From Cytophagales bacterium (GTDB taxonomy: Bacteria; Bacteroidota; Bacteroidia; Cytophagales; Spirosomataceae), in the NCBI GenBank assembly GCA_013298125.1, contig JAAFJP010000019.1, forward strand, positions 1-64,000: a DNA stretch of 64,000 nt, in the 5' to 3' direction. Position numbers and translations under genes: made by a program. This document shows positions 15,310-59,899 of this stretch, in pieces (the first letter of the stretch is position 1; each line of letters opens with the position of its first letter). Below the pieces are notes generated by a model that worked only from the letters and a program-made list of their open reading frames with translations, did no database searches and was not told the DNA's origin.

Positions 15310-15375
15310 CGACTTTTTGTACCTTCTTCTGTTAATCGGAACGCCGACCGCCAAAAACTAATCAATTATACTCTT
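15310..15375. repeat. Direct repeat copy 2 with a GC-rich insertion
   Basis: Same repeat as 15216-15267 but 66 bp long. A GC-rich word, CGGAACGCCGACCG, is inserted at about 15336-15350. It resembles, more distantly, the words inserted in palindromes elsewhere in the window. Confidence 0.8.
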
Positions 15376-15429
15376 GAAAAGTTGATATGGAGTTTTCTTG
15401 TTGATGAAATGTAACTCCTTGATAATCAA

Positions 15430-15942
15430 CTAATTTGAATGTGCATACATATATAACCTATCTTTTAATTCCTTTCTGGCAATGTGAATTCTATTCTTTA
15501 CCGTTCCAATTGGAATATCTAATTTTTCCGCAATTTCGTGATACTTAAAACCTCTAAAATACATCATAAAAGGCGTTTTATATGCCTCATCTAATGAACC
15601 CACAGCCTGATTAATGTCGTTCATCGCAAATGTACTAAGAGCCTGATTATCAGTGCTATTTTCCATTGAATTGATGAAATGTAAATTCTCAGAAGTATCT
15701 ATGAAAGTATTTTTTCTCACCATTCTTTGGTAGTTGGTGATGAAAGTATTTTTCATGATGGTATATAACCATGCTTTCAAGTTTGTTCCTTCTGTGTATT
15801 TGTCACGATTGGTAAAAGCCTTCAACAATGTGTCTTGCAACAAATCATTCGCTTCTTCATAGTCTCGTGTTAACTTCATGGCAAATGGTTTCAGAGACTT
15901 TGAAACTTTACCTAAGTGAAATGTGAATTCTAAGGCTGTCAT
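15430..15942 (-). CDS. ECF-type RNA polymerase sigma factor
   Basis: 170 residues from ATG 15942 (MTALEFTFHLGK, the usual start of these Bacteroidota sigma factors); a farther upstream start is possible but AT-rich and unlikely. Region 2 is DYEEANDLLQDTLLKAF...NLKAWLYTIMKNTFI. Region 4 is VGSLDEAYKTPFMMYFRGFKYHEIAEKLDIPIGTVKNRIHIARKEL split over residues ~112-160. No anti-sigma gene is adjacent, which is common for this stand-alone Bacteroidota type. It faces away from the beta-barrel and TonB receptor genes, separated by a 480-bp AT-rich spacer, so a regulatory link to them is possible but unproven. Confidence 0.88.
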   Translation of the reverse strand: MTALEFTFHLGKVSKSLKPFAMKLTRDYEEANDLLQDTLLKAFTNRDKYTEGTNLKAWLYTIMKNTFITNYQRMVRKNTFIDTSENLHFINSMENSTDNQALSTFAMNDINQAVGSLDEAYKTPFMMYFRGFKYHEIAEKLDIPIGTVKNRIHIARKELKDRLYMYAHSN

Positions 15943-16423
15943 GCTATTTTGTGTTGTTGGTGATTTGTTTAACAAATATAGTATAATATTAAACAAAACT
16001 CCAAATAAAATTCGTAAAAATTTACTTTTTTTTTACAAAAATTATCAAATACACCGATAATTGTCAGAAAAATACTGTTTTTTTTTAGCTAAATACCTCA
16101 ATATCAATAACTTTCAAGATTATTTTATTTTGTTTAAGTTTTAGCTAACTTTATTTTTGTTTAAGTTTTATCATCAATTGCTAATACATAAAACTATTTT
16201 GAAATTTAGTGATTTAGTTTTTCTTGAAGAAATAGAAATCCGTCACTCGACTATTTTTGAAAGTGAAACACCTTAGATTGTGTGTGATTTGTCAACTTGT
16301 CAAGATTCCCTAAACCTCAAAATCTTTCTTTTACTAAAATTTTCTTAACTTAGCAATTCAATAAACCACTATTCATCCTTGTTCCAATAGGTTAGTAGGT
16401 GGACGAAAAACTAATCATCAATT
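15943..16423. other. Divergent AT-rich control region
   Basis: No gene was seen. It must hold the promoters of the sigma factor (minus) and the beta-barrel gene (plus). TATTTTTG words occur at 16152-16159 and again near 16247. Confidence 0.5.
16130..16159 (+). promoter_or_regulatory. Candidate promoter: TTG ... TATTTTTG
   Basis: TATTTTTG at 16152-16159 fits TAnnTTTG, and a TTG at 16130-16132 lies 19 bp upstream, the usual Bacteroidota spacing. It is far (about 265 bp) from the start at 16424. Confidence 0.25.
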
Positions 16424-17056
16424 ATGTCTCCTAAGTTTATCTCTTTGATAATTGCTATCGGGTTTTATTCAACTACTTTATTTGCCCAAGAAAAAGTGGG
16501 GCATTTTTCGTTAGGCTTACAGAGTGGCGTTTTAATACCCTTTGGAAATTTGAAGAGTGAATACGGACCAGAACAGGTAGGAATTAGCAATGGGCTAACA
16601 TTCAAATATTTCCCAAACGCTCATTTCGCAATGGGAATGAGCATTAGGATTATGAACAATGAGTTCAAGGCAAAATCAAAAGAAGTGAATATTCCTATAA
16701 GTCAGGTACCCTTCAATTTTGATTTTGAATGGTATCCGACCAATGGGAGATTGAAACCTTACTTTGGTTTCGGAGGGGGATTGAGCTTTTTTACGGTAAC
16801 ACCCAAAGCTGATTTAGTGAATACTTTAAAAGAAATTCCTGATACTTACACGACCCCTTCTTATTTATTAACCTTGAAGGGAGGCTTGATGTATAAGTTA
16901 TCTCAACGATTTAACCTACACGCAGAAGGGACATACCTCAGAATGACAGAGCCTGGTAATGAGTTTCTTTGGCAACAAAACGATGGGACTCTTTATGGTC
17001 AATTCCCAAATAAAGCGACTTTCACGTTAGGGATTTTCTACAATTTTGATGAGTAA
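16424..17056 (+). CDS. Outer-membrane beta-barrel protein
   Basis: 210 residues. The signal peptide is MSPKFISLIIAIGFYSTTLFAQ. It is followed by eight or so amphipathic strands (GHFSLGLQSGVLIPFG, LTFKYFPNAHFAMGMSI, LKPYFGFGGGLSFF, FNLHAEGTYLRM) and a final strand ATFTLGIFYNF. This matches the small porin-like or OmpA-N-terminal type barrels (outer membrane beta-barrel family). It likely serves as a structural or unknown transport protein. It is followed in the same direction, after about 100 bp, by a TonB receptor. Confidence 0.8.
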   Translation: MSPKFISLIIAIGFYSTTLFAQEKVGHFSLGLQSGVLIPFGNLKSEYGPEQVGISNGLTFKYFPNAHFAMGMSIRIMNNEFKAKSKEVNIPISQVPFNFDFEWYPTNGRLKPYFGFGGGLSFFTVTPKADLVNTLKEIPDTYTTPSYLLTLKGGLMYKLSQRFNLHAEGTYLRMTEPGNEFLWQQNDGTLYGQFPNKATFTLGIFYNFDE

Positions 17057-17136
17057 AACTATACACTTAACATTCCCATAACATAACGATAACCTAATCT
17101 TCACAATCCCCTAACATTCTGGTTACATTGCTACTC

Positions 17137-17144
17137 TAATTTTG
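17137..17144 (+). promoter_or_regulatory. Candidate -7 element TAATTTTG
   Basis: Exact TAnnTTTG match 18 bp before the preferred ATG at 17163 of the TonB receptor; a short leader would result. The -33 element is unclear. Confidence 0.35.
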
Positions 17145-17162
17145 CATTATCAAAAATCCAAT

Positions 17163-20003
17163 ATGATGATGCAAAAATTACTCAGTACAATTTTAATCCT
17201 AATCGCTTCAATATCTTTCACTTTCGCCCAAGAGGGAACTATCAGAGGAACTATCAAAGACGCTAAATCGAAGGAGGATTTGGTGGGTGCAACGGTCTTT
17301 ATCGAAGGACTTAGCAAAGGTGCGGCTGCCGACATCAACGGCTTTTTTACTATTGGGCGTGTACCCGTAGGAAGCTACAAAATCAAAATCTCATTCGTAG
17401 GTTATAATCCAAAATTTATTGAAAACATAAAAGTTGTAGCCGACCAAGTTACCGAAATCAACGCTTTTGTGGAAGAGGAAACTTCTACTCTGAATGAAGT
17501 AAAAGTAATCGGTCAAAAATTAACCAATACCGAAGTTTCGGTGATTTCCGAAATCAAGGCAGCTCAACAAGTAGTGAGTGGAATCTCAGCCGCTCAAATT
17601 GGCAAAACCCTTGATAGAAATGCCGCAGAGGTAGTTAAGCGTGTGCCAGGGGTAACGATTTTTGGGGACAGATTTATCAATATCCGTGGATTAAATGAGC
17701 GTTACAATACAGTTATGTTGAACAATGCCTTTGCCCCAAGTATGGAGGCTGACGTTCGTTCGTTTTCATTTGATGTGATTCCATCGGCTCAAATTGACCG
17801 TATTTTGGTCTTCAAATCTCCTGCCGCTGAATTGCCAGGTGAGTTTGCGGGTGGTGTCGTTAAAATCTTCACAAAAAGTATTCCTGATTATAATTATTTC
17901 ACGATTGATGCAAGCATTGGCTCACGTGAGGGTACGACTGGGCGTGAGATGTTGCAACCGCAAAGGGGTAAAAACTATTTGTTGGGCTTCAATAATACCT
18001 TCTCGGATTTGCCAAAATATTTCCCGACTACCTCTAACCTAAAACAATTATCGACTTCCAATCCAGTGGCATTGTCTCAGGCGGGTCAATTATTGAGAAA
18101 TACATGGACTCCTGTGTCTTCCACGGCTGCCCCTGATATGCGGATTGCCCTCACGGGTGCGTACAAACTCATCGACAGAGATGTTTTCAAATTAGCCAAC
18201 GTAACGGCGGTCAATTATAGCAATACCAATTCTATTTTCGAGATGTTGAGAAGCGATTTTGGTTATACCGCCACGCCTACCAACGAAACAACCATTAACG
18301 AAGATACTCGTTTCAGAGATTTACAATATAATAATGCCATTCGTTTGGGCGTGTTGCACAACTGGGCTTTGAGAATCAACGATAACCACACATTTGAGTT
18401 CAAAAACCTTTTCAACCAAATGAGTAATGCTCAGTATGTAAATCGTAATGGTTTTGAAAACGGAGCTGAATGGAATGTGCGTTCCTTGGATCAGATTTTT
18501 AGAGGAATTTATACGGGACAAGTTTTAGGTCGCCATAAATTAAATGAGGGTAAAACCAACGTCGATTGGGTGGTTGCTTACAATAAATCTTACCGTGATC
18601 AGCCTGATTATAAGCGTTTTAGATATTCAACGGGTGATGGAGCAACGCCTGAATTACTCGTGCCTTTTGGGGCGGCTCAGACCTTTAACTTAGGAAGAAC
18701 CAATATTATTTTGGATGAAAAAGCCTTGATGGGTGGTATTAATTTAGTTCAAAAATTAACCATCGTAAAAGGAAAAACGAAGGAAGATAATAGAGATTTA
18801 GAGTTAAAAGCGGGGGTATTTTACGAAAATAAAGACCGTAATTTCAATGCTCGTAACCTTGGCTTTGTCCGTGCGAATGGTAGCTTGTTTAATGTTGGAA
18901 CGTTACCAATCAACCAAATTTTTGCTCAACAAAATATCAATTCTACCAACGGTGTAAAGATTGATGAACAAACCAATGCTTCGGATTCATACACGGCGAG
19001 CAACAACCAAATTGCTTTTTATGCTTCGGGGAACTACTCTTTTACGAAAAAGTTGAATATTATTGCGGGACTGAGAATGGAGAAAAACGCTCAGAAATTG
19101 AATAGTTTTGACATCAGTAAGAATGCTCCTGTGAACTACAATCGTGATGTTACGGACTTTCTTCCTTCGGCAAATTTGACCTATAATTTTACTGAAAAAT
19201 CTTTGTTGAGATTGGCTTACGGAAAAACCTTGAACCGTCCAGAATTCCGTGAAATTGCTCCGTTTTCTTTCTATGATTTTGTGAATAATCGAGTGATTCA
19301 GGGGAATTCTGAGATTCAAAATGCTCGGGTTGATAATGTAGATTTTAGATATGAATTCTATCCAACGCCTTCTGAAATTGTTTCGATAGCGGCTTTCTAT
19401 AAAAAATTCACTAACCCAATTGAGGTAGTTTTTGAATCGTCGGGAAGCAATGAAATCAGTTTTGAAAATGCTGAGAGTGCATTCAGTACGGGGATTGAGG
19501 TAGAAGTCAGAAAGTCTTTGGATAAAATCTCGGGTTCACCATTCATTAATAAACTCAATTTGGTTTTCAACGGAGCATTTATTTACAGCCGTGTGAAGTT
19601 TGATGCTAATACGATAAATCAGTCGGATAATCGCCCGCTTCAAGGACAATCGCCATACATCATCAATGCAGGTATCAACTACAACGATACAAAAAATAAT
19701 ACCCAAGTAAGTCTTCTTTTCAACGTAATAGGCAAACGTATTTATGCCGTAGGTAACTCATTTGCAGCGGGTTATCCAGATTGGTACGAGATGCCACGTA
19801 ACGTTTTGGATTTAACTTTCTCGAAAGAGGTCTATAAAAATTTGATTGTTAAAGGAGGTATTACGGATATTTTGAATAATAAAAACTTAATCCTCCAAGA
19901 CGGAAATAAAGACAGCAATTTCGACAGTTCAGCCGACCAAACGATTCAGTCGTTTTCACCTGGTAGGGTTTATTCGTTGGGGGTTGTTTATACGATTCGG
20001 TAG
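17163..20003 (+). CDS. TonB-dependent receptor with N-terminal carboxypeptidase-like domain
   Basis: About 946 residues from ATG 17163, the first of three ATGs before QKLLSTILILIASISFTFAQ, the signal peptide. A TTG further upstream is not needed. A CarboxypepD_reg-like domain follows (GTIRGTIKDAKSKEDLVGATV...), then the plug (AEVVKRVPGVTIFGDRFINIRGLNERYNTV) and a 22-strand barrel ending GRVYSLGVVYTIR. It imports an unknown substrate across the outer membrane with TonB energy. The next gene encodes a large exposed lipoprotein, so the two probably act as a receptor/partner pair. Confidence 0.9.
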   Translation: MMMQKLLSTILILIASISFTFAQEGTIRGTIKDAKSKEDLVGATVFIEGLSKGAAADINGFFTIGRVPVGSYKIKISFVGYNPKFIENIKVVADQVTEINAFVEEETSTLNEVKVIGQKLTNTEVSVISEIKAAQQVVSGISAAQIGKTLDRNAAEVVKRVPGVTIFGDRFINIRGLNERYNTVMLNNAFAPSMEADVRSFSFDVIPSAQIDRILVFKSPAAELPGEFAGGVVKIFTKSIPDYNYFTIDASIGSREGTTGREMLQPQRGKNYLLGFNNTFSDLPKYFPTTSNLKQLSTSNPVALSQAGQLLRNTWTPVSSTAAPDMRIALTGAYKLIDRDVFKLANVTAVNYSNTNSIFEMLRSDFGYTATPTNETTINEDTRFRDLQYNNAIRLGVLHNWALRINDNHTFEFKNLFNQMSNAQYVNRNGFENGAEWNVRSLDQIFRGIYTGQVLGRHKLNEGKTNVDWVVAYNKSYRDQPDYKRFRYSTGDGATPELLVPFGAAQTFNLGRTNIILDEKALMGGINLVQKLTIVKGKTKEDNRDLELKAGVFYENKDRNFNARNLGFVRANGSLFNVGTLPINQIFAQQNINSTNGVKIDEQTNASDSYTASNNQIAFYASGNYSFTKKLNIIAGLRMEKNAQKLNSFDISKNAPVNYNRDVTDFLPSANLTYNFTEKSLLRLAYGKTLNRPEFREIAPFSFYDFVNNRVIQGNSEIQNARVDNVDFRYEFYPTPSEIVSIAAFYKKFTNPIEVVFESSGSNEISFENAESAFSTGIEVEVRKSLDKISGSPFINKLNLVFNGAFIYSRVKFDANTINQSDNRPLQGQSPYIINAGINYNDTKNNTQVSLLFNVIGKRIYAVGNSFAAGYPDWYEMPRNVLDLTFSKEVYKNLIVKGGITDILNNKNLILQDGNKDSNFDSSADQTIQSFSPGRVYSLGVVYTIR

Positions 20004-20007
20004 GTAA

Positions 20008-20102
20008 AACCTCACCCCCCCAGCCCCCTCTCCGATTGAGAGGGGGAGCAAGAGGACGAATACTCCCCCTCTTTAACGGAGAGGGGGCTAGGGGGTGAGG
20101 TT
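20008..20102. repeat. GC-rich palindrome, CCTCACC family, without the GC word
   Basis: AACCTCACCCCCC at the left pairs with GGGGGTGAGGTT at the right. The inner stem CCCCCTCTC/GAGAGGGGG is present twice. It lies directly after the TonB receptor stop (20003). It is the same family as the copies inside the metal pump gene but lacks the 15-bp GC word in either arm. Confidence 0.8.
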
Positions 20103-20145
20103 ATTAGTAATCAAGCATTTAACAAAACATACAATTCAAAATCTC

Positions 20146-21897: not shown

Positions 21898-21900
21898 TGA

Positions 21901-21974
21901 GATAGGTCGTAGGTATGAGGTATAAGGTCGTAGGTACAAAATACCTCATACTTACGACTTCATACCTCATATCT
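21901..21974. repeat. Palindrome with TCGTAGGTATGAGG units
   Basis: The left arm repeats GGTCGTAGGTAT-GAGGTAT words. The right arm repeats ATACCTCATACTTACGAC words. It fills most of the gap between the two lipoprotein genes. Confidence 0.65.
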
Positions 21975-21988
21975 CCAAAAATACCAAT

Positions 21989-22534: not shown

Positions 22535-22564
22535 ATTTTGATTTTATAAATCCGAAATCCGAAA

Positions 22565-23148: not shown

Positions 23149-23149
23149 A

Positions 23150-23394: not shown

Positions 23395-26300
23395 ATGATA
23401 GATTCAATCATTCGTTTCAGTATATACAACAAACTGATTATCATTGCTTTAACCCTCGGTCTAATAACTTGGGGTGGATTTTCAGTGACCCAATTGACCA
23501 TTGATGCCCTGCCTGATATTACTTCAAATCAAGTACAAATTATCACACAATCACCCGCTTTGGCAGCTACTGAGGTCGAAAAATATATTACTGTTCCTCT
23601 CGAAATCTCCCTAAGAACTGTACCCAATACCCAAGAAATTCGCTCGTTTTCACGCATGGGTTTATCAGTGATTACGGTTGTTTTTGAGGATAATGTTTCC
23701 CAAGAAAAGGCTCGCCAACAAATTTCTGAGAAACTCCGTGATGCTGAACCCAATCTGGTCGCAGGGGCAGGTCGTCCAGAGATGGCACCTATCACCACGG
23801 GCTTGGGGGAATTTTATCAATACACTTTAACCGTTGATAAAAAATACAAATCAAAATATTCACTGACCGATTTACGAACTATGGAAGACTGGATTGTAAA
23901 GCGACAACTACTTGGTGTTAAGGGAGTTGTGGAAATCAGCTCGTTTGGTGGAATGCTAAAACAATACGAAGTTTCTATCGACCCCGAACGATTGAGAGCC
24001 ATGAATTTGGGTCTTTCGGAGGTCTTTTTGGCATTACAAGAAAACAATTCAAACTCTGGCGGAAGCTACATCGAAAAGGGTACGGATGCTTTTTTTATCA
24101 GGTCGGAAGGTATGGTAAAAAATCTGCAAGATATTGAAAATGTGGTCATTACCACTCGTGGGGATGTGCCCGTTTTGGTACGTGATGTAGCAAAAGTACA
24201 GTTTGGTCATGCCGTTCGGTACGGTGCAATGACCCGCAATGGTGAAGGGGAAGCCGTCGGTGGAATCGTGTTGTTATTGAAAGGTGAATCTGCGAATAAT
24301 GTGGTAGTGGATGTAAAAAAACGGGTTAAAGAAATTCAGAAATCATTGCCCGAAGGCGTAAAAATCGAATCATTTATTGACCGTAGTAAGCTGATTGACA
24401 GGGCAATAGGTACGGTTCAGAAGAATTTGATTGAGGGCGGATTGATAGTGGTTTTTGTGTTGGTATTGCTTTTGGGAAACCTTCGGGCGGGTTTGGTGGT
24501 GGCTTCGATGATTCCGCTTTGTCTCCTGTTTTCCTTTGCGATGATGCGTTTGTTTGGGGTTTCTGCCAATCTGATGTCGTTAGGAGCAATTGATTTTGGA
24601 TTGATTGTAGATGGGGCAGTGATAATTGTAGAGGCGGTGGTGCATCGGTTGGCAGTCGGCAGTCGGCAGTTGGCAATTGGCGGTTGGCAGTCGGGAGTCA
24701 ATGGTAATTACTCGAATGAATATATGGAAGAAAATTCGACGACTTCTCCCCCTCTCATTAAGGAGAGGGGGTCGGGGGCGACCGACGCTTCGGGTGAGGT
24801 GACTTTATCCCAATCCCAAATGGACGAATCCGTTTATCACTCCACCGTAAGTATCAGAAAATCAGCGGCTTTTGGGGAAATCATTATCCTGATTGTTTAT
24901 CTTCCTATTTTGGCATTGTCTGGTATCGAAGGCAAAATGTTTCGTCCGATGGCGGAGACTGTGGGTTTTGCTATTTTCGGGGCTTTGATTCTTTCGCTTA
25001 CCTACGTACCTATGATGTCAGCTTTGTTTTTGAGTAAAAAAATAAGTCATAAAACAACCATCGCTGATAAAATTATGGGCTTTTTGTATGGGATTTATGA
25101 GCCAGTGATTCAGTGGGCAATAAACCTCACCCCCAGCCCCTCTCCCACTGAGAGGGGGGAAAGTACACGGTCAAATACTCCCCTCTCAACGGGAGAGGGG
25201 CTGGGGCGACCGACGCTTCGGGTGAGGTTTTGGATTTTAAGTTCTTCAATCATCTTCTTTATCCTTAGTCTATTCATTTTCAACAAGTTAGGTGGAGAAT
25301 TTATCCCCGAACTAAACGAAGGAGATTTTGCCGTTGAGCTGATTTTACATACTAACGCCTCTCTTTCGCAAAGTGTAAAGATGAATGATGAAGCCCAAAA
25401 AATCATGCTTCGAGAATACCCCGATGAAGTTTTGCAGGTGGTTTCCAGAATTGGCTCTTCCGAAATCCCGACTGACCCGATGGGGATAAATGCCTGTGAT
25501 TTGATTATCCTTTTGAAAGAACCCGCCGAATGGAAAAAAGCGGAGAATATGGAAGAATTAGCTGAAAAAATGAAGGAGTCTTTGAGTGCTTTGCCTGGCG
25601 TAAATTTTGAGTTTACCCAACCCATTCAGATGCGATTTAACGAATTGATTGCGGGCGTAAAGTCAGATGTAGCCATAAAAATCTACGGTGAAGACCTTGA
25701 AGTTTTGTACGAAAAAGCCCAAGAAGTTGCCAAAAAAATCAGAAAAATCAATGGTATTGCCAACCTCAAAGTAGAACAAATTGAGGCAATTCCACAAATG
25801 GTAGTAGCTTATGACCGACAAAAAATTGCTCAATACGGTATGAAAATCAATGCGTTAAATACTCTTTTGAAGTCTGCCTTTGCGGGTGAGAAAGCGGGCG
25901 TAGTGTATGAGGGTGAGAAAAGATTTGATTTGGTTATTCGTTTAGATTCATCTTACCGCCAAGACATTCAACAAATCCGTGATTTATATTTAGACTTACC
26001 CAGTGGTGGCAAAGTTCCGTTCTCGGAGGTTGCCAATATCAACTATCAAGACACACCATCTGAAATTGCCAGAGAAAATACTCGCCGTAGAATCTCCATC
26101 GGAATCAACGTCCGTAACCGTGATGTGGAGAGTTTAGTAACTGAAATTCAAGGAGTTATAAATGAAAAAATAAAAATTCCAGTTGGGTATTCCATCACGT
26201 ATGGAGGGGCTTTTGAGAACCTGAAAGCTGCCAAAGACCGCCTTTCGATTGCCGTTCCTGTGGCTTTGATTTTGATTTTGATACTCTTGTTTTTTACCTT

Positions 26301-28038
26301 CAATTCCCTCACCGAAGCCCTAATGGTTTTCGTGGCGATTCCGCTTTCTGCCATTGGCGGTATTTGGGCGTTGTGGCTGCGAGATATGCCATTTTCAGTT
26401 TCGGCGGGTATTGGTTTTATTGCCCTTTTTGGAGTGGCAGTCCTCAACGGAATCGTCCTGATTGCACAGTTCAATCTCCTTGAAAAAGAAGGAGTTACGG
26501 ATATAAAACAGCGAATTTTGGAAGGAACGAAAACTCGTTTCAGACCCGTGATAATGACCGCCGCCGTAGCCTCTTTGGGCTTTTTGCCAATGGCTTTAAG
26601 TCAGTCCGCAGGGGCAGAAGTGCAACGCCCTCTGGCAACGGTAGTAATTGGCGGTTTAATCTCCGCAACTTTGCTAACTTTGATTGTTTTGCCAGTGATT
26701 TATAGCTTTGTGAAACGAGGGAAAATAAAAATTGGGAAAGGAGTAATAATGATTTTGGTTGTCTCTCTCTTTTTATTTACTTCACAATCACAAGCTCAAA
26801 ACCTCACCCGAAGCGTCGGTCGCCCCAGCCCCTCTCCTACTGAGAGGGGGGCATTTGTCTCAGAAAACTCCCCTCTCCACGGGAGAGGGGTCGGGGGTGA
26901 GGTTTTGAGCTTACAATCATTCATCAAAAAAGCCCTCGAAAACAACCCCAATCTCAAAATTTCAAATTTAGAAATAGCTCAAAATCAAGCACTTACAAAG
27001 TCTGCAAAAGATTTGGGGAAAACTTCTTTTGATGTACAATACGGGCGTACGCAGGTCTATACAGGCAATGACATTACGTTGAGTGTGGGGCAAAATTTTG
27101 CTCTTCCAAGTCTTTATAAAGCCCAAGAAAATCTCTTGAAAGGTAATGTTTTGACGGCTGAAAAACGGGCTAATTTGTCTAAAAATCAATTGATTGGTGA
27201 GGTCAAAAGTCTTTATTTTTTGTTGTTAAATAATGGAGAATTGATAAGACTCCTCAATCGTCAAGACAGCCTCTATCAAGCTGCCTTTCGGGCGGCATCT
27301 ATTCGACACAAAGTTGGGGAGACAAACCTCTTAGAAAAAATATCATTCGAGACTCGATTAAGAGAAATTCAAAACCGAATTCAAGGGCTAAAATCTGATG
27401 AAAAAGTATTGTATCAAAATCTAAAATTTTTGATGAATACTTCCGAGAATTTTTTGATTGAAGACGAGTTATTGTTCCAAAAAACATTGATTATCAATGA
27501 GTTAAATACTTCATCCAATCCACTTTTGAGCATTTTGAAACAACAAAATGAGGTTAATATTTTACAAACTAATGTAGAAAAAGAAAAACTCAAACCCGAT
27601 TTCAGGGTCGGGCTAATTAACCAAAGTATCGAGCAAAATTATAACCAAAACATCGTACAGGTAGGCGTAAATGTACCCATATTCACGAAGGCACAACAAG
27701 CCCGTATTGAGTCATCAAAAATTGGTCAAGAGATTAGCAAACAACAAATACAATTAGCTGAAAATCAATTAGAAAGCCAATTAAAAACCCTGAAAATTCA
27801 GCACGATAAAGTCAAAAATTCCATAGGATATTATGAAAAATCGGCTCTCCCACAGGCAAATTTAATCATCAGTACAGCCACCAAAACCTATCAGGCGGGT
27901 GAAATAGAATATGTAGAATTCGTACAAAATATCACCCAAGCGTGGCAAATAAAAGAAGCGTACTTGTCTGAAATTCAGTCACTTAATCAAATCATTATCA
28001 ACATCGAAACCATTATTGGAAATGAGAATTTCAATTAA
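23395..28038 (+). CDS. czcA: CzcA-type RND metal efflux pump fused to a TolC-like outer-membrane factor, carrying three in-frame repeat insertions
   Basis: 1547 residues. Residues 1-~1115 are a heavy-metal RND pump; DFGLIVDGAV at Asp400 is the CzcA-type (divalent metal, HME1-like) motif rather than the Cu/Ag CusA motif. A 12-TM core is recognisable (IGLIVVFVLVLLLGNL, FGVAVLNGIVLIAQF). Residues ~1119-1135 (MILVVSLFLFTSQSQAQ) look like a signal peptide, followed by a TolC-like domain (~1170-1547) with paired helical hairpins. Such fusions occur in Bacteroidota at about 1440 residues. The extra length here matches three repeat-derived insertions at about residues 419-481, 577-612 and 1136-1170. 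The frame is open through all three. The adaptor gene follows with a 17-bp overlap. Confidence 0.9.
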   Translation: MIDSIIRFSIYNKLIIIALTLGLITWGGFSVTQLTIDALPDITSNQVQIITQSPALAATEVEKYITVPLEISLRTVPNTQEIRSFSRMGLSVITVVFEDNVSQEKARQQISEKLRDAEPNLVAGAGRPEMAPITTGLGEFYQYTLTVDKKYKSKYSLTDLRTMEDWIVKRQLLGVKGVVEISSFGGMLKQYEVSIDPERLRAMNLGLSEVFLALQENNSNSGGSYIEKGTDAFFIRSEGMVKNLQDIENVVITTRGDVPVLVRDVAKVQFGHAVRYGAMTRNGEGEAVGGIVLLLKGESANNVVVDVKKRVKEIQKSLPEGVKIESFIDRSKLIDRAIGTVQKNLIEGGLIVVFVLVLLLGNLRAGLVVASMIPLCLLFSFAMMRLFGVSANLMSLGAIDFGLIVDGAVIIVEAVVHRLAVGSRQLAIGGWQSGVNGNYSNEYMEENSTTSPPLIKERGSGATDASGEVTLSQSQMDESVYHSTVSIRKSAAFGEIIILIVYLPILALSGIEGKMFRPMAETVGFAIFGALILSLTYVPMMSALFLSKKISHKTTIADKIMGFLYGIYEPVIQWAINLTPSPSPTERGESTRSNTPLSTGEGLGRPTLRVRFWILSSSIIFFILSLFIFNKLGGEFIPELNEGDFAVELILHTNASLSQSVKMNDEAQKIMLREYPDEVLQVVSRIGSSEIPTDPMGINACDLIILLKEPAEWKKAENMEELAEKMKESLSALPGVNFEFTQPIQMRFNELIAGVKSDVAIKIYGEDLEVLYEKAQEVAKKIRKINGIANLKVEQIEAIPQMVVAYDRQKIAQYGMKINALNTLLKSAFAGEKAGVVYEGEKRFDLVIRLDSSYRQDIQQIRDLYLDLPSGGKVPFSEVANINYQDTPSEIARENTRRRISIGINVRNRDVESLVTEIQGVINEKIKIPVGYSITYGGAFENLKAAKDRLSIAVPVALILILILLFFTFNSLTEALMVFVAIPLSAIGGIWALWLRDMPFSVSAGIGFIALFGVAVLNGIVLIAQFNLLEKEGVTDIKQRILEGTKTRFRPVIMTAAVASLGFLPMALSQSAGAEVQRPLATVVIGGLISATLLTLIVLPVIYSFVKRGKIKIGKGVIMILVVSLFLFTSQSQAQNLTRSVGRPSPSPTERGAFVSENSPLHGRGVGGEVLSLQSFIKKALENNPNLKISNLEIAQNQALTKSAKDLGKTSFDVQYGRTQVYTGNDITLSVGQNFALPSLYKAQENLLKGNVLTAEKRANLSKNQLIGEVKSLYFLLLNNGELIRLLNRQDSLYQAAFRAASIRHKVGETNLLEKISFETRLREIQNRIQGLKSDEKVLYQNLKFLMNTSENFLIEDELLFQKTLIINELNTSSNPLLSILKQQNEVNILQTNVEKEKLKPDFRVGLINQSIEQNYNQNIVQVGVNVPIFTKAQQARIESSKIGQEISKQQIQLAENQLESQLKTLKIQHDKVKNSIGYYEKSALPQANLIISTATKTYQAGEIEYVEFVQNITQAWQIKEAYLSEIQSLNQIIINIETIIGNENFN
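24649..24802. repeat. Repeat-derived insertion 1 inside the pump gene
   Basis: A one-sided array of GGCAGT/TTGGCA units (about 24649-24700) is followed by a TCCCCCTCTC/GAGAGGGGG hairpin (24747-24771). The right half of a CCTCACC-family palindrome comes next, with the GC word at 24779-24793. The encoded segment lies in the cytoplasmic loop after the DFG...D membrane helix. Confidence 0.75.
25122..25230. repeat. Palindromic insertion 2 inside the pump gene
   Basis: AACCTCAC at 25123 pairs with GTGAGGTT ending at 25229; the inner stems are CCCCTCTC/GAGAGGGG. The right arm alone carries CGACCGACGCTTCGG (25207-25221). It encodes PSPSPTERG and PLSTGEGLG just before a membrane helix. Confidence 0.85.
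26749..26799 (+). other. Signal-peptide-like segment inside the fusion
   Basis: ATG 26749 opens MILVVSLFLFTSQSQAQ (residues 1119-1135) at the pump/TolC junction. This could be an export and cleavage signal that lets the TolC half reach the outer membrane, or a separate translation start. Confidence 0.5.
26792..26912. repeat. Palindromic insertion 3 at the pump/TolC junction
   Basis: Perfect 18-bp outer arms (AAGCTCAAAACCTCACCC at 26792-26809 and its complement ending at 26912) with inner CCCCTCTC/GAGAGGGG stems. Here the left arm alone carries the GC word CCGAAGCGTCGGTCG (26808-26822), the opposite arm from insertion 2. It encodes PSPSPTERG again. Confidence 0.85.
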
Positions 28039-29299
28039 TAAAGTTTTTGCAGTGAACAAATACTGTAGCTCGAAGTGGCACTTCGAGAATCTTACTCCAT
28101 TCTCGAAGTGCCACCGGGCGTCGGTCGCTTCGAGCTACAGTATCTCACAATGTGGTGTAAGATTCTTTCTTCTTTCTCCCTTCCTCCTTTTCTCCTTATT
28201 CCTCTCTTGTTCTTCCCCAAAAAAACAAGAAGAAAAAATTGAACAAAAAGAAGAAATTGCCGATGTCGTAACCCTCACAAAAGAGCAACTAAAAAACGCT
28301 AATTTAGTGATTGGAACATTGGACAATACCATCCTTTCGGAAGACATAAAAGCCAACGGAATTGTGGACGTTCCGCCAATGAATATGGCATCGGTGAGTT
28401 CGCCAATTAATGGTTTTGTGAAAAGTACAAAGTCGCTTCCAAACTCGTTTGTGCGTAAGGGCGAAACTTTGGCGGTCATCAATAGCATGGATTTCGTTCA
28501 GATGCAACAGGACTATCTCCAAACGATGAGTCGCTTGAAATTATCAGAACAAGAATTAGAACGTCAGACCATTTTGAGTACCGAAGACGTTGGAGCAAAA
28601 AAGAAACTCCAACAATCAGAAGCCGAAGTTTCTTCTGCCAAAGCACAAGTAAAAGGCTTAGAAATAAAAATGCAAATTATTGGTATTCAATTAGATAATC
28701 TCAAAAAAGGGCAAATTATTTCAACCGTAAATATCCTTTCTCCAATTGATGGATTTATCAAAACGACTAATCTATCAATCGGGAAAAATGTAGTTCCATC
28801 GGATGTTTTGTTTGAAATTACAGGAAATGCTCATAAACATCTGGAGCTAAAAGTATTTGAAAAAGACCTTACTAAAATCAGCGTAGGACAAAAAATTATC
28901 TTAGAAAACCCGAAATTTGGTAATGTGGAAGCAACAGCACAAGTATTTTTAGTAGGAAAAAATGTTGAGCAAGATTCCAAAACTATCAACATTCACGCCC
29001 ATATTTCAAATGAGCAAATTGAGAATAAATTAACCGTTGGACAATACGTCAATACAAGAATTTTAACGGGAAAAAGAACTGCCAAAACATTACCAGAAAC
29101 GGCTATTTTAAGGAAAGGAGATGGAGGAGTTATTTTTGTACAAATCAAAGAAAACATCTTTCAACAAATACCCGTAAAGTTAGGTATTTCTGAGAGAGGA
29201 AACGTAGAAGTATTTTTTGAAAAAGAGATTGATTTCTCAAAAATTGTAAAGTCTGGGGCTTCGATTTTGCAGGCAGTTTTGAGTGGCGGGGAAGAATGA
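28022..29299 (+). CDS. RND periplasmic adaptor lipoprotein with a palindrome in its signal region
   Basis: 425 residues from ATG 28022, overlapping the pump stop by 17 bp. The lipoprotein signal (FFLLSPFLLFSLFLSC) is preceded by about 40 residues, of which about 28 are encoded by an 84-bp palindrome. The mature part is a CzcB/CusB-type membrane-fusion protein: a beta-barrel/lipoyl half (ANGIVDVPPMNMASVSSPINGFV), an alpha-hairpin coiled coil (~155-215) and the second lipoyl half (ILSPIDGFIKTTNLSIGKNV). The barrel domain and C-terminal AILRKGDGGVIFV follow. It links the inner-membrane pump with the TolC half. No metal-binding N-terminal extension is obvious. Confidence 0.88.
   Translation: MRISINKVFAVNKYCSSKWHFENLTPFSKCHRASVASSYSISQCGVRFFLLSPFLLFSLFLSCSSPKKQEEKIEQKEEIADVVTLTKEQLKNANLVIGTLDNTILSEDIKANGIVDVPPMNMASVSSPINGFVKSTKSLPNSFVRKGETLAVINSMDFVQMQQDYLQTMSRLKLSEQELERQTILSTEDVGAKKKLQQSEAEVSSAKAQVKGLEIKMQIIGIQLDNLKKGQIISTVNILSPIDGFIKTTNLSIGKNVVPSDVLFEITGNAHKHLELKVFEKDLTKISVGQKIILENPKFGNVEATAQVFLVGKNVEQDSKTINIHAHISNEQIENKLTVGQYVNTRILTGKRTAKTLPETAILRKGDGGVIFVQIKENIFQQIPVKLGISERGNVEVFFEKEIDFSKIVKSGASILQAVLSGGEE
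28060..28143. repeat. 84-bp nested palindrome within the adaptor gene start
   Basis: The outer arms ATACTGTAGCTCGAAG and CTTCGAGCTACAGTAT (16 bp, perfect) enclose inner arms TGGCACTTCGAGAAT and ATTCTCGAAGTGCCA (15 bp, perfect). The right side alone has 14 extra bases, CCGGGCGTCGGTCG, at 28114-28127. The length, 84 bp, is a multiple of three and the frame stays open. Confidence 0.9.
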
Positions 29300-34284: not shown

Positions 34285-34286
34285 AA

Positions 34287-34412
34287 GTTTTTAGTTCTGG
34301 GTTTTGGGTACTAAGTTCTGAGTTCTGAGTTAATTTAAAAGTCTTTAATGATTTTGAAACTCAGTACCCAAAACCCAGAACCAAGTACTCAGAACTAAAA
34401 ACCCAGAACTAA
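34287..34412. repeat. Gap-filling palindrome, GTTCTGGGTT/GTTCTGAGTT units
   Basis: The left arm is a run of TTCTGGGTTTTGGGTAC / GTTCTGAGTT words. The right arm is AACTCAGTACCCAAAACCC / GAACTAAAAACCC words. It occupies nearly the entire gap between kinase and regulator genes. Confidence 0.75.
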
Positions 34413-34418
34413 AAAGTT

Positions 34419-37783: not shown

Positions 37784-37917
37784 GGGAGGAAGGTAATTAG
37801 GGATTAGGTAATTAGGGATTAGGCAGTTTGGGACGTTTAAAGTTAGGATAAATACTTTCAAATTCTTAGTTATTTAACCTAATTCCCCAATCCCTAATCC
37901 CCAATTACCTAATCCCT
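37784..37917. repeat. Gap-filling palindrome, TTAGGGA units
   Basis: The left arm repeats GTAATTAGGGATTAGG words. The right arm repeats CCTAATCCC/ATTACCTAATCCC words. It fills the gap between mrdA and rodA and touches both genes' ends. Confidence 0.75.
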
Positions 37918-39922
37918 ACCTTTTCGGTTTCATCGGGATTTTGATAGTGGTTGGTTTTTCAGCTCCGATGAGTGGTACACTTTGTGGAGTTGTCAAAAAT
38001 AGCTCTTCATCAACTTTTTGTATAACGCTATCCTTTTTCACATTAGTTGATTTTGAATTATCGGTCTTAGGCGTTGTGGTTCGGATGATATTTAGCGGGT
38101 AACCCTTGTTCATCCATTTAGTCTCAATGGCTTTTCTATCAACTCGACGTTTGATATATTTTTCGATACATAAAGAAGCAATCGGAGCGGCATGAGCCCC
38201 GCCCGAACCTGCATTTTCTACAAAAACGGCAATCGCAATTTTAGGATTTTCTCTGGGAGCAAAAGCCATAAAAATGGAGTGATTTTCTCCATGACGATTC
38301 TGAGACGTTCCTGTTTTTCCACACATCTGAATATCGCTCATACGTCCGTCACCCGATACTGTTCCATTATTAACCGCCGCAACCATTCCTCCGATGACGG
38401 TATCAAAATGTCTTCTATCAATGCCTACGGACACTTTTTCCTTATATTTTTCTTCAACTTCGCCAACTTTCCCTACTCCTTTCACCAAATGCGGACGAAT
38501 ATACCAGCCTCGGTTGGCTATGATAGCCGCTACATTGGCTACTTTCAAAGGACTTACTAATAATTCACCTTCACCAATACTATTACTGGCGATATTTGAG
38601 AATTTCCAGCGAAGCGGTGCTTTTGATGGTCCTCCATACATTTTATCATACATGGCAACGTTAGGCAAATTACCTTTCCGTTCGGTTGGGAGGTCTATTT
38701 CTAATGATTGACCTATTCCAAACTTTGCCACCATATCACCCCATTTTTGTAAACCTACCGCTGATTTTTTGAAAACATTTGTTTCGCTATTATTATAAAT
38801 CATTCGTTTGTAGGTCTGATAAAAATAAGGATTACATGAATACTGGATTGCCCTTTGCACATCACTCGCTACGGGGTGATTGTGGCTACAATTAATCGGC
38901 GAACCTCCATGCCCAAAACCTGTCCCTGGGGATATTGCTCCCATTTGTAAAGCAACTAAGGCTTGAATAATCTTAAAAGTTGAGCCTGGACGATATGAGG
39001 CACTTGGCGGACGATTTAAGAGTGGATGTGCTGGATTAAGGTTAAGTTGTTGAAAATATTTAGAATATGTCCTGCCCGACAATAAACTCGGGTCATAAGT
39101 AGGAGCTGAAACCATTGCCAACACTTCGCCCGTTGAGGGTTCGATGGCAACTACGCTTCCTACTTTGTGTTGCATCAAACTGTCGGCGTAGGCTTGCAAT
39201 TCTATGTCGATTGAGCTAATCAGATTCTTCCCTGCCAAAGGTTCTTTGTCATGAGAGCCATTTTTGAATGAGCCTTTTTCTGCCCCTCGACTATTGACCA
39301 TCATGTATTTGATACCTTTTTCTCCACGCAATTGGTCTTCATAATAACGTTCTATACCCGTAACGCCCACATAATCACCTTGACGATAATAGTCATCGCC
39401 TTCGTCTTCTAATTTTTGTAAGCGTTCTGGACTAATTTCTCCTACGTACCCGAGAGCATTCGCCATACCTTTCCAATCGTAGGTACGCAAAGCACTGACT
39501 TTAAAGTCAAATCCTGGATAATCGACCATTGCATCCTGTACACGGGCATAGTCCTGTCGAGACAATTGTCGAAGCATCAACGATGGTCTAACGGGTGAGT
39601 ATATTCTGGCGAGATGCGTGAGGCTGTCAAACTCAGTACGAGTGAGTCCAAAGATTTCACAAAAACGGAGGGTATCAGCAACTCGTGCCTTTTTAGGAGT
39701 TACATAGAGGTCATAAACTACTGTGTTACTGACAATTAGTTTTTTGTTACGGTCATAGACCAAACCTCGAAAAGCTGGTTGTACCAATTCCCTGATGGCA
39801 TTGTTTTCTGCATCAAGTTTGTAGGTCTCATCGACCACCTGTAAGTAAAATAATCTGCCAACGTAAATCAACGCTATCAGAATAAAAAAACCTTGAATAA
39901 ATCGTTTTCTAATCTCTTCCAT
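37916..39922 (-). CDS. mrdA: Penicillin-binding protein 2 (transpeptidase of the elongasome)
   Basis: 668 residues. One N-terminal membrane helix (IQGFFILIALIYVGRLFYLQ) precedes the dimerisation domain (AFRGLVYDRN). The transpeptidase domain has the catalytic STFK (Ser314), SCN in YSCNPYF, and KTGT at Lys536. It cross-links peptidoglycan in partnership with RodA encoded just downstream. The C-terminal ~60 residues (TTPKTDNSKSTNVKKDS...) are low-complexity and may be a flexible tail. Its ATG is preceded immediately by a palindrome. Confidence 0.95.
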   Translation of the reverse strand: MEEIRKRFIQGFFILIALIYVGRLFYLQVVDETYKLDAENNAIRELVQPAFRGLVYDRNKKLIVSNTVVYDLYVTPKKARVADTLRFCEIFGLTRTEFDSLTHLARIYSPVRPSLMLRQLSRQDYARVQDAMVDYPGFDFKVSALRTYDWKGMANALGYVGEISPERLQKLEDEGDDYYRQGDYVGVTGIERYYEDQLRGEKGIKYMMVNSRGAEKGSFKNGSHDKEPLAGKNLISSIDIELQAYADSLMQHKVGSVVAIEPSTGEVLAMVSAPTYDPSLLSGRTYSKYFQQLNLNPAHPLLNRPPSASYRPGSTFKIIQALVALQMGAISPGTGFGHGGSPINCSHNHPVASDVQRAIQYSCNPYFYQTYKRMIYNNSETNVFKKSAVGLQKWGDMVAKFGIGQSLEIDLPTERKGNLPNVAMYDKMYGGPSKAPLRWKFSNIASNSIGEGELLVSPLKVANVAAIIANRGWYIRPHLVKGVGKVGEVEEKYKEKVSVGIDRRHFDTVIGGMVAAVNNGTVSGDGRMSDIQMCGKTGTSQNRHGENHSIFMAFAPRENPKIAIAVFVENAGSGGAHAAPIASLCIEKYIKRRVDRKAIETKWMNKGYPLNIIRTTTPKTDNSKSTNVKKDSVIQKVDEELFLTTPQSVPLIGAEKPTTIKIPMKPKR

Positions 39923-39925
39923 TTT

Positions 39926-40018
39926 TAGGGGTTGGGGATTAGGGATTGGGGATTAGGGATTGGGGGGTAATATCATTTAGAAACTAATCCCCAATCCCTA
40001 ATCCCTAACCCCTAAAAA
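39926..40018. repeat. Gap-filling palindrome, GGGATTAGGGATTGGGG units
   Basis: The left arm repeats GGGGATTAGGGATTGGGG words. The right arm repeats CCCCAATCCCTAATCCC words. It fills the gap between atpZ and mrdA. Confidence 0.75.
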
Positions 40019-40019
40019 T

Positions 40020-53128: not shown

Positions 53129-53132
53129 TTTG

Positions 53133-53244: not shown

Positions 53245-53246
53245 AA

Positions 53247-56189: not shown

Positions 56190-56213
56190 TAGGTTTTAGG
56201 CAATCATGGTAAT

Positions 56214-56251
56214 AACAAAAGCCTCTTCGTGAAAACGGAGAGGCTTTTGTT
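56214..56251 (+). terminator. Terminator of the 54381 gene
   Basis: AACAAAAGCCTCTTCGT pairs (one mismatch) with ACGGAGAGGCTTTTGTT. Confidence 0.7.
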
Positions 56252-56449
56252 ATGAGAAAATATAGCTTAAAAATAATTTTTAACATCAACACAACCTTTT
56301 GACGGTTTATTACGTCTTTGATAAAGATAGGGATATAAATGAGTGAATCTCAAAAGGGTAAAACCAAATCAACCTTTTACTCGTAAATATTTAAGCGTTG
56401 ATTCGGTAAAATGGTAGAAAAAATAAATAGCTTATGGAGACTGCCGAAA

Positions 56450-56477
56450 GTCCCGAGAATTTTTCTTGGGGCTTTTT
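56450..56477. terminator. Terminator-like hairpin before the sterol-desaturase-like gene end
   Basis: AAGTCCCGAGAA pairs imperfectly with TTCTTGGGGCTT, followed by TTTT; convergent side of the minus gene ending at 56480. Confidence 0.45.
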
Positions 56478-56479
56478 TA

Positions 56480-57748: not shown

Positions 57749-57958
57749 GGTTTCAGAAATTATAATTATTCTACGAAAATATAACATTTTGACCCAAATA
57801 AAAAAGGATGATGTTGATGATTGAAGAATTGTATAATATTTCCAAATGTTCGATTCATCTTTAATAATTTCCAAACAAAAAGGTATGAGGTATATCTAAA
57901 TTGAACAAAACCGATAAAGTCTTCGTTAATAAAGCATACATAAATAAAAAAATGAAAC

Positions 57959-58537
57959 ATGAATATTGCCATTATTGCCACGTCACCCCGAAAAAACAGT
58001 AACTCATTACGCTTTTCAAAATATCTTCAAAAAATTACACAATCTTCTGGTTATGAGAATATTACGGTAGTTGACTTTCATCATTTTGATATTCCATCGG
58101 TAGGTCGTGGAACAGTAAACAAGGATGCTCTGACTGATTTTCAAAGTGAATTAATTACGGCTTGGGGAAATGCTGATTTAGTATTTTTTGTAACGCCAGA
58201 ATATAACTTTACCGTGAACGGGGATTTATTAAACGCCTTTCACCAATTGGGTTCAAAAGATTTTGCTCATCTTTTCAATAATAAAGTGTTTGCATTTGCG
58301 GGTGTTTCGAGTGGAAGAGGTGGCAAAGTACCTTGCTTGGAATTGACAACGGTAGTCAATAAAATCATCAATTTTAGTAATCAATATTCTGTGGTTTCGC
58401 CCCGCATATACGAGTCGCATGAGACACATAAGAATTTGGATGAAAATTCGGATTCGGTAGGTAACTTAATCTATGAAAGCTCTGTGAAGGCTTTTGTGGA
58501 TTATGCTTTGGAGGTTACGAAGCGTTGGGTGGAGTAG
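57959..58537 (+). CDS. NADPH-dependent FMN reductase-like flavoprotein
   Basis: 192 residues, flavodoxin fold. The phosphate-binding loop is TSPRKNSNSLRFSKYL near residue 8. VFFVTPEYNFTVNGDLLNAFHQLG carries the conserved PEYN motif. VFAFAGVSSGRGGKVPCLELTTVVN follows. It reduces FMN or a quinone/azo substrate with NAD(P)H. It diverges from the sterol-desaturase-like gene; a short palindrome follows. Confidence 0.85.
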   Translation: MNIAIIATSPRKNSNSLRFSKYLQKITQSSGYENITVVDFHHFDIPSVGRGTVNKDALTDFQSELITAWGNADLVFFVTPEYNFTVNGDLLNAFHQLGSKDFAHLFNNKVFAFAGVSSGRGGKVPCLELTTVVNKIINFSNQYSVVSPRIYESHETHKNLDENSDSVGNLIYESSVKAFVDYALEVTKRWVE

Positions 58538-58539
58538 TT

Positions 58540-58598
58540 TATTGGTTACTGGTTATTAGTTATTGGGAATTTTTCCTAATAACTAATAACCTATTTCA
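58540..58598. repeat. Small palindrome, TTATTGGTTA units
   Basis: TTATTGGTTACTGGTTATTAG on the left and CTAATAACTAATAACC on the right, immediately after the FMN reductase stop. Confidence 0.6.
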
Positions 58599-58664
58599 GT
58601 CATACTACTATGAATAATATTTAAACGTAAAATTATTAATTATTCACTATTAATTGTCCATTGA

Positions 58665-59636
58665 CTAAACTTCTCTATCAATCAACATCTCAGCAAAGGC
58701 TCTTAGTTCAGCTTTGCGTTCTTCATCTACTTTTAGCACGTCCAAACATTTTAATCCTTTGTCAAAATAGTCATTTATTTTGGCTTCGGCTAATTGCTTG
58801 ATACCCAAGGAATCATAAATCTCCGTAACGGCTTTTACTTTCTCGGCATTATCAAAAGTTTTGGCGTTCAGCCACTTATCTAATGATTCTTTGGTTTCGC
58901 CCGATGCTTTTTCGATAGCTTCGATGAGCATAAAGGTTTTTTTGTTGGAAATAATATCACCACCCACTTGTTTTCCAAATTTCTCTGGGTCACCGTACAC
59001 ATCCAATAAATCATCTTTTAACTGAAAACCAAGCCCGATATTGATACCTATTTCGTATAATAAACCACAAGATTTATCGCTTGCTCCCGCAATAATTCCG
59101 CCTAATTCTAAGGCAAAACCCAAGAGAACGGACGTTTTGAGTTTAATCATTTCGAGGTATTCGGCTTCGGTCACCTGCTCACGACTCTCGAAATTCATGT
59201 CTAATTGTTGTCCCTCACAAACCTCCGCCGCCGTGCGATTAAAGCGTTTCATGGCTTTTTTGAAACGGCTGTCTTCTACTTCCATCAGGAGTTCGTACGC
59301 CTGTACGAGCATCACATCACCCGAAAGAATGGCGATATTTGCATTCCATTTTTCGTGAACCGTTGGCTTGCCACGACGAAGCGGAGCATTGTCCATAATA
59401 TCATCGTGCATCAAGGTAAAATTATGAAAAACCTCTACCGCAGAGGCAGGTTTGACGGCTTTTTGCCAATCGTCAGTGAACAGTGCAGTTGCCATAAGAG
59501 TCATCAGCGGACGCATTCTTTTGCCCCCCAAAGCCATTAAATAGCGGATGGGTTCGTATAGTTCAACTGGATTTTCGCCGTAAGTCTGTTGAGAAAATTC
59601 TTCGTTTAGGGCTTGTTGGAAGTTTTTGGTAGTCAT
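58665..59636 (-). CDS. Polyprenyl diphosphate synthase
   Basis: 323 residues. It builds prenyl diphosphates by head-to-tail condensation of IPP. The first aspartate-rich motif DDIMD starts at Asp78, preceded by FHNFTLMH. GGKRMRPLM and the second motif DDLLDVYGD (~210) are in place, with a K-containing FGKQVGGD after it. Chain length cannot be told from sequence alone. The upstream dxs gene supplies an earlier step of the same isoprenoid pathway on the opposite strand, 1.4 kb away. Confidence 0.93.
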   Translation of the reverse strand: MTTKNFQQALNEEFSQQTYGENPVELYEPIRYLMALGGKRMRPLMTLMATALFTDDWQKAVKPASAVEVFHNFTLMHDDIMDNAPLRRGKPTVHEKWNANIAILSGDVMLVQAYELLMEVEDSRFKKAMKRFNRTAAEVCEGQQLDMNFESREQVTEAEYLEMIKLKTSVLLGFALELGGIIAGASDKSCGLLYEIGINIGLGFQLKDDLLDVYGDPEKFGKQVGGDIISNKKTFMLIEAIEKASGETKESLDKWLNAKTFDNAEKVKAVTEIYDSLGIKQLAEAKINDYFDKGLKCLDVLKVDEERKAELRAFAEMLIDREV

Positions 59637-59643
59637 GTTTTCG

Positions 59644-59712
59644 TTTAGGTGTTAGGGATTAGGTGATAGGGATTAGGAAAACACTAATCGTCTAATAACT
59701 AATATCTAACAT
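59644..59712. repeat. Palindrome, TTAGGGATTAGG units
   Basis: Left arm GGTGTTAGGGATTAGG and similar; right arm CTAATCGTCTAATAACTAATATCTAAC is more degenerate. It is adjacent to the polyprenyl synthase start. Confidence 0.5.
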
Positions 59713-59772
59713 ATTTTTTGCCAAATTTAGGCAGAAGATTTTGAATCTTTATACTAAGTAGTCATTACAATT

Positions 59773-59899
59773 TAATCAACGTTTTATCTACCGCAAAAGA
59801 ATCAAAAGAAAACAAGAGCATTTATTCTCTAAAACTAATGATACCTTTTGTTTCTTTTGTGGCAACCGACGCTCGGTAAAAAATAAACGTTGTTTAATT
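59773..59899. repeat. Palindrome with one-armed GC word
   Basis: Left arm CAACGTTTTATCTACCGC...AAAAG; the right arm is its near-complement (CTTTTGTTTCTTTTGTGG ... AACGTTG). The right arm alone has CAACCGACGCTCGG inserted at 59863-59876. Confidence 0.7.

Follow-up and report, generated by a model that had tools for sequence, protein, structure and literature searches.

How does a GC-rich word of 14-15 nt come to lie in only one arm of palindromes that are otherwise symmetric? The question is raised by the first 64,000 bases of contig JAAFJP010000019.1 (assembly GCA_013298125.1, forward strand), a stretch of DNA from a Cytophagales bacterium of the family Spirosomataceae which is called the window throughout. 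The window belongs to a genome of 5.85 Mb in 72 contigs (the source genome), which appears to be congeneric with Arcicella rosea, A. aurantiaca and an Arcicella metagenome-assembled genome. A first-pass annotation of the window had noticed the word and proposed that it was added to pre-existing palindromes, with a minimal mobile unit as one of the options. Alignments show that a unit of 14-15 bp has been gained exactly, and more than once, in repeats, in intergenic DNA and in genes of Arcicella. We consider it probable that the word is a mobile micro-hairpin of 14-15 nt that is inserted in trans into existing sequence.

Two genes carry the word as a precise addition. In genome G004, a PolX-like gene (with matches to PHP, HHH and polymerase-beta thumb domains) contains exactly 15 extra bases in frame, and all seven other genomes of the genus have a 15-base gap at this position. 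The insert reads CCGAAGCGTCGGTCG if it is placed before CCC, the placement being ambiguous by two bases (CG). A resolvase-type gene in G002 is longer than that in G006 by exactly 14 bases, which shifts its frame; here, the ambiguity is one base (C). Gene names were taken from Pfam, except that PolX, as well as LeuS and IleS below, were assigned by reading of the sequence. An intergenic site has 14 extra bases in G004 compared to G005, and of the homologous repeats L122 and L145 (G005, G004) one is longer by 15 nt, a second word nearby being common to both. A target-site duplication of 1-2 bp is possible at the PolX and resolvase sites and none longer was seen. There is little doubt that the exact gains in genes are insertions.

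Filled and empty sites can also be compared within palindrome families. At the family-1 site CCTCAC^CCCCNNCCCCTC, where a gap of 0-24 nt was allowed, the gap is empty in 43 contexts and contains a 14-15 nt word in another 43. The family-2 site GTGCCA^CTTCGAG is empty in 7 Arcicella contexts and is occupied by a 14-nt word, in four variants, in 11. In both families the gap is either empty or holds a whole word, never half of one. An ungapped empty homologue was found for 40 of 139 sites in the DNA examined, many of them paralogous repeats. In an open scan for inserts of 8-24 nt between shared 9-mers, nothing but these words, some of them read in a shifted register, recurred in more than two contexts (9 and 8), a result that is weak because most of the scanned stretches had been picked for the word. 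Since precise empty homologues exist in repeats as well as in two genes, the proposal that the word was added to pre-existing sequence is upheld, and the option of a minimal mobile unit is favoured. Words of 14 nt were also observed within transposase genes with a match to the integrase core (rve) in L452 (G006:C307) and L462 (G003).

In the window, where all words had been placed and spelled correctly, the 15-nt word CCGAAGCGTCGGTCG occurs three times. One copy (25207-25221, reverse strand) is in the right arm only of a family-1 palindrome at 25123-25229 (AACCTCAC..GTGAGGTT), while another (26808-26822, forward strand) is in the left arm only of the family-1 palindrome at 26800-26904. A family-1 palindrome at 20008-20102, absent from the three relatives aligned there, has the word in neither arm, as had been reported. 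The third copy (24779-24793, reverse strand) is present as described, but its host is a half family-1 element (24745-24799) without an opposite arm. Two variants of 14 nt occur in further palindrome families, again in agreement with the first-pass annotation: CCGGGCGTCGGTCG (28114-28127, forward strand) is in the right arm only of a family-2 palindrome at 28061-28142 (TACTGTAGCTCGAAG..CTTCGAGCTACAGTA), which is absent from three relatives aligned, and CCGAGCGTCGGTTG (59863-59876, reverse strand) is in one arm of a family-3 palindrome at 59777-59892 (CAACGTTT..CAAAAG..CTTTTG..AACGTTG). Unrelated families carry the word, and the idea that it is a fixed component of a single palindrome family was rejected.

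The three elements at 24.8, 25.2 and 26.8 kb, together with their 15-mers, are in frame within one open reading frame (ORF) of 1547 aa (23395-28038, forward strand), in which an RND efflux pump and an outer-membrane efflux protein (OEP) are fused. The palindrome at 26800-26904 is near the start of the OEP part; none of the three elements is found in the ortholog of the four relatives aligned. Between 24745 and 26904, in-frame family-1 palindromes add peptides such as LTPSPSPTERG to the protein. Comparable in-frame elements were observed in a class I tRNA synthetase (L016, read as IleS), in a methyltransferase (L007) and in further open frames. By eye, the same synthetase position holds a word-bearing family-1 half element in L016 and in L261 and L307, and the source genome and Emticicia differ in the side of CCTCAC on which the word is found. 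That pump and OEP were fused through the palindromes was considered and rejected: three of the four relatives keep an open frame of 1467-1483 codons across this region without palindromes, and that of the fourth stays open for 1167 codons until its contig ends. The fused gene is thus common to relatives that lack the palindromes, which did not cause the fusion.

The length of the word is strongly biased in open frames. Among 130 sites with flanks of at least 210 bp, collected with another word pattern, the surroundings are open in 30 of 61 cases for 15-nt words and in 2 of 69 for 14-nt words (Fisher p = 2.3e-10), where a frame was taken as open when it had 60 open codons on both sides, irrespective of annotated genes, and the two arms of one element were counted separately. 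Selection would remove frame-breaking 14-mers from genes and leave 15-mers in place.

Chance does not account for the word, as counts in the window, in the genome and in the genus all exceed their controls. Allowing up to three mismatches to the 15-mer retrieves the same three copies that match exactly in the window, where 0.22 are expected, and none of 100 shuffled windows has three matches. In the source genome, GCGTCGGTYG has 52 matches and its reversed control one, and the 15-mer with up to two mismatches has 45 compared to two. The general word pattern has 136 matches in eight genomes of the Arcicella genus (3 to 52 per genome) and its reversed control none. Genomes rich in the word include G000 (52), G004 (39) and G144 (29), and poor ones G006 (3) and G148 (1). 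The pattern and its control were also applied to 222 genomes of the family. Emticicia (genus g28, named via one shared contig) has 108 matches in 11 genomes and no control match, and genome G035 from one further genus has 23 compared to none. Counts are lower in G202 (9, control 1) and G163 (8, control 2), and in genus g52 (48 genomes, tallied from the survey table) word and control are found equally often (50 and 53). In an Emticicia-genus genome (G144, 14 stretches), the word family likewise occurs in unrelated contexts and with a similar habit in different palindromes, e.g. TGCGGA^CTTAAGTCCGCA.

The word family has two main forms, CCGAAGCGTCGGTCG and CCGAGCGTCGGTCG, and is GC-rich in a window with only 38% GC. 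We collected 141 distinct sites in Arcicella (169 if other taxa are included) with word patterns, several of which had the following C built in. They divide into 47 copies of CCGAAGCGTCGGTCG, 35 of CCGAGCGTCGGTCG, 24 of CCGAGCGACGGTCG, 11 of CCGTGCGACGGTCG and minor forms. Some matches are doubtful: L031 and L067, in which the word has no left half, look accidental, the same may apply to L072 and L112 (L112 being counted among the 141), and of the 80 stretches listed from a 17-mer search of the genome contigs (109 in all) 66 have at least 47% GC and are chance-like.

The 141 sites represent 79 distinct contexts (six bases on either side). Besides palindromes, these include short repeats like ATCGAA^CATCGAA, the repeats AAGTAA^CAAAAG, AACTCG^CTACGC and AGCC^CCCTAA, and apparently unique DNA. 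Because part of the patterns ended in C, the base that follows the word was evaluated from the source-genome counts, where it is C for 50 of 52 matches, the other two being matches without the left half. The preceding base is A or C at 128 of the 141 sites, and there is no constant flanking tetranucleotide, as bases -4 to -1 vary. The gains are nearly always before C and mostly after A or C, and without duplication beyond the 1-2 ambiguous bases.

Palindrome arms are clearly over-represented among the sites. With the word removed, the junction is in a detectable palindrome arm at 65 of 140 sites (one of the 141 has too short a flank), compared to 8 of 400 random AC or CC positions from similar stretches. 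Outside family 1 this applies to 27 of 89 sites, and 75 of the 140 sites are without a detected palindrome. A palindrome is therefore not required, and the view that placement in one arm is the defining feature is not supported. In family 1, palindromes that lack the word occur beside others with one or both arms filled. The first 100 of 256 family-1 arms could be combined into 44 paired elements (35 without a word, 5 with one, 4 with both arms filled), leaving 12 unpaired arms. The restriction to a single arm thus holds for the palindromes of the window but is not a rule, as genome-wide both-arm and non-palindromic sites are frequent. The first-pass annotation had expected the word neither at random positions genome-wide nor always in both arms; the former is found in part, the latter is not. 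A larger palindrome, near TTTCGGAATTATATACTTAATGTCGCAA, encloses some of the family-1 palindromes (L464 and L465 of G007, L073, L066), and L464 and L465 have a further unit near AAGTTAAATTTGAGTTGAAA in one outer arm only.

When both arms are filled, they resemble each other. In the first 100 arms listed, the four both-arm elements compare to 0.96 expected for independent arms (permutation p = 0.0023). The Arcicella stretches examined contain 15 such elements (14 of family 1, one of family 2; the Emticicia element L513 is not included). Word length is equal in both arms of all 15, and the T/A type in 14. Full length agreement of the 14 family-1 elements has a probability of 8.6e-5 under random pairing. 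The arms have thus not acquired their words independently, which is explained by copying between arms or by joint spread. Copying between arms is known for quasi-palindromes in Escherichia coli, as described in parts of PMC7202029.

This concordance would also be expected if the word had belonged to the palindromes from early on, had been lost from single arms where short C runs allowed slippage, and had spread only through palindromes that transpose or convert each other. The matching lengths and the excess of both-arm elements fit such a history, as do the CC repeats at both word edges in family 1. Against it stand gains in DNA without a detected palindrome for which empty homologues exist, the occurrence in unrelated families and 79 contexts, and the presence of different variants at exactly the same point. 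The PolX case refutes this history as a complete explanation, and we regard it as unlikely; it may apply to part of family 1.

What the members of the word family have in common is their build. Each can be read as a 4-bp stem with a loop of 3-4 nt, the second stem strand being followed by the tail YCG, as in CCGA-(A)GCG-TCGG-TCG and its relatives. DNA folding predicts a hairpin of this build for CCGAAGCGTCGGTCG (-2.7 kcal/mol), CCGAGCGTCGGTCG (-2.2), CCGTGCGACGGTCG (-2.3) and TCGGAACGCCGACCG (-2.9), whereas CCGAGCGACGGTCGC takes another fold, GCGA-CGG-TCGC (-3.1 kcal/mol). The variable stem position is paired in 102 of 137 words (86 A:T, 14 T:A, one C:G and one G:T).

The last of the four, TCGGAACGCCGACCG, is a second word. 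It is found at 15336-15350 (forward strand), between GTTAA and CCAAAA, and had been described as a weaker relative of the first. It is similarly built, being a hairpin of the form TCGG-AACG-CCGA followed by CCG, but it is a different word and is located in a direct repeat rather than in a palindrome. One copy of this repeat is filled (15310-15370) and its neighbour is empty (15216-15262). G004 resembles the window in having filled and empty copies side by side, while a single empty copy is present in G003, G005, G006 and G007. In stretches that had not been picked for it, CGGAACGCCG[AC]CCG was found in ten contexts of seven Arcicella genomes, some of them orthologous. L397, L111 and L246 are among these stretches. 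Its outer bases are T:A in four, G:C in four and unpaired in two contexts. One context is ATCGAA^CATCAAA, a kind of site that is also used by the first word. The two words, CCGA-AGCG-TCGG-TCG and TCGG-AACG-CCGA-CCG, thus have the same build, use the same A^C site class and are found at the same point in a repeat of the ATCGAA^CAT kind. That two unlike sequences agree in build and site suggests recognition by fold.

For the mobile micro-hairpin, we envisage supply and insertion in trans. In the simplest case, a single-stranded hairpin would be joined into exposed single-stranded DNA by some enzyme of the host or of a mobile element. As palindromes can extrude, they would frequently receive the word. 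One insertion would then reach the other arm by quasi-palindrome template switching, or a doubly marked palindrome would spread as a whole, and arm copying or joint spread would yield palindromes with none, one or both arms filled and with matching words. A folded single-stranded unit is favoured because 14 bases leave scant room for two transposase sites. The joining may be due to an enzyme of the HUH/Y1 kind, or the word may be cDNA copied from a small RNA, two options between which the observations do not discriminate. A bolder proposal, which we make tentatively and hold to be somewhat less probable than its negation, is that the single-stranded 14-15 nt hairpin is a true transposable unit of Bacteroidota and the smallest known, that a dedicated activity in trans recognises its fold over its sequence, and that palindromes are landing pads in which it duplicates from arm to arm.

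A search for a REP-associated tyrosine transposase had been suggested. The source genome indeed has five matches to PF01797 (Y1 transposases of the RAYT or IS200 type), but nothing was found that ties them to the word. A degenerate word, CCGAGCGTTGGTCG, in a repeat array near one Y1 gene is graded only as a lead. This array of CCCCGATGGGGC repeats (L105, 1000-1460; G000:C6) adjoins the Y1 transposase gene, one repeat containing CCGAGCGTTGGTCG. Two adjoining Y1 transposase copies were also observed in L108 and L109 (G000:C6:6659-7284), and a frame near one of them has repeated peptide-coding sequence. In their motifs, the Y1 proteins of L105 and L106 resemble HuH subclass 1.2.

A fixed size, fixed boundaries and a hairpin shape might also be expected of a scar, 14-15 bp left behind by an excised larger transposable element whose two ends form the hairpin. 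That several variants occur at one site speaks against this, and in the stretches examined no larger element was noticed between word halves, though none was searched for. We consider a scar quite improbable. Still less can be said for a signal that is selected for protein binding or DNA uptake and keeps reappearing through mutation and biased recombination instead of by insertion. The uniform sequence, the dozens of copies in some genomes and the GC content relative to the window would suit such a signal, but the copies are gained as complete units for which exact empty sites exist, one of these gains shifts the frame of a gene, and the gaps of families 1 and 2 never hold half a word; this explanation is very improbable. 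An artefact of assembly or library, for which a short GC-rich word might be suspected, is regarded as refuted by the occurrence of the word in several species and genera, in assemblies from isolates as well as from metagenomes, in open frames and with arm-matched variants.

Several observations weigh against the mobile micro-hairpin. Of five sites outside the big palindrome families that were compared with relatives, two gave clean empty sites (PolX and resolvase), two have the word within a larger insertion (LeuS, L149; a glycosyltransferase, L111) and one could not be aligned; for L025, no clean empty orthologue was found among the relatives compared. The C rule is broken at two of the 141 sites and by a degenerate word in L027 that precedes A. 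The variable stem position is unpaired in 35 of 137 words (32 of them A:A) and 6 to 35 of 200 short shuffles fold equally well, so that a selected hairpin is suggested but not proven. A share of the copies in family 1 may owe their spread to the palindrome and not to fresh insertion, and given the CC microhomology in this family some of the one-arm cases may reflect loss. No enzyme could be tied to the word in the genomes examined, and mobility is read from sequence comparisons.

The window has further repeats of a different kind, namely long imperfect inverted repeats of short intergenic motifs (TTAGGGATT, GTTCTGGGTT, TGGTTATTGG) at 8937-9085, 34285-34418 and 37791-40019.

If the word is mobile, it ranks among the smallest mobile DNA units on record, and it occurs in the freshwater genera Arcicella and Emticicia. 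How a unit too small for two transposase sites moves could be tested in cultured Arcicella aurantiaca, A. rosea and Emticicia. The sites also provide natural material for the study of arm-to-arm copying in palindromes and of selection on gene insertions of 14 versus 15 bp. Among the titles and opening lines of abstracts of top-ranked open-licence PMC papers, none describes the word in Arcicella or Emticicia.

Known systems share some of these features. Rickettsia palindromic elements, in what we draw from PMC10969869, are palindromes of about 150 bp that are in frame in genes; they resemble the host palindromes at 25.1 and 26.8 kb, not the word. The GC clusters of yeast mitochondria, as outlined in sections of PMC4478555, are tiny GC-rich palindromic mobile units that diversify by substitution and merger, and other mitochondrial hairpin elements are mentioned in part of PMC2800124. 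The word is likewise tiny, GC-rich and palindromic, whereas GC42 differs in having 42 nt and in residing in an organelle. Repetitive extragenic palindromes (REPs) have 20-40 bp and a GTAG or CGTC tag, with stems of 8-9 bp in CGTC REPs, according to excerpts from PMC3116915, PMC3733652 and PMC6006769. Judging from these, the REP/REPIN (RAYT) system is similar in that small dispersed hairpins are thought to be moved in trans, and Y1/RAYT-type genes are present in the source genome. The word differs by its 4-bp stem, the lack of a constant tag outside it and its insertion within other repeats. A CGTC-tagged REP was rejected, as the stem is too short and T-type words have no CGTC.

By description rather than by sequence, the word seems to work most like the small dispersed repeats (SDR) of cyanobacteria. 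SDR have 21-27 nt and hairpin form, are nested in heptamer repeats and are not known outside one coherent group; in some families, the hairpin shows compensatory changes. They were reportedly described for Nostoc and relatives by Elhai et al. in 2008 (Genome Res 18:1484). In contrast to this range, the word has 14 or 15 nt as defined by exact empty sites; it occurs in Bacteroidota instead of cyanobacteria, and frame selection in genes is seen for it. Both are very short repeats embedded in other repeats, as far as portions of PMC4390886, PMC3116915 and PMC2884548 describe SDR, the last with a length of some 20 bp; for the word, this embedding comprises the 65 of 140 sites in palindrome arms and others in CATCGAA-type and further repeats. 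As the word is shorter than the SDR range and is likened by description only, we refrain from classing it among the SDR. It would rather represent very small mobile repeats in a second phylum, with about two thirds of the SDR length.

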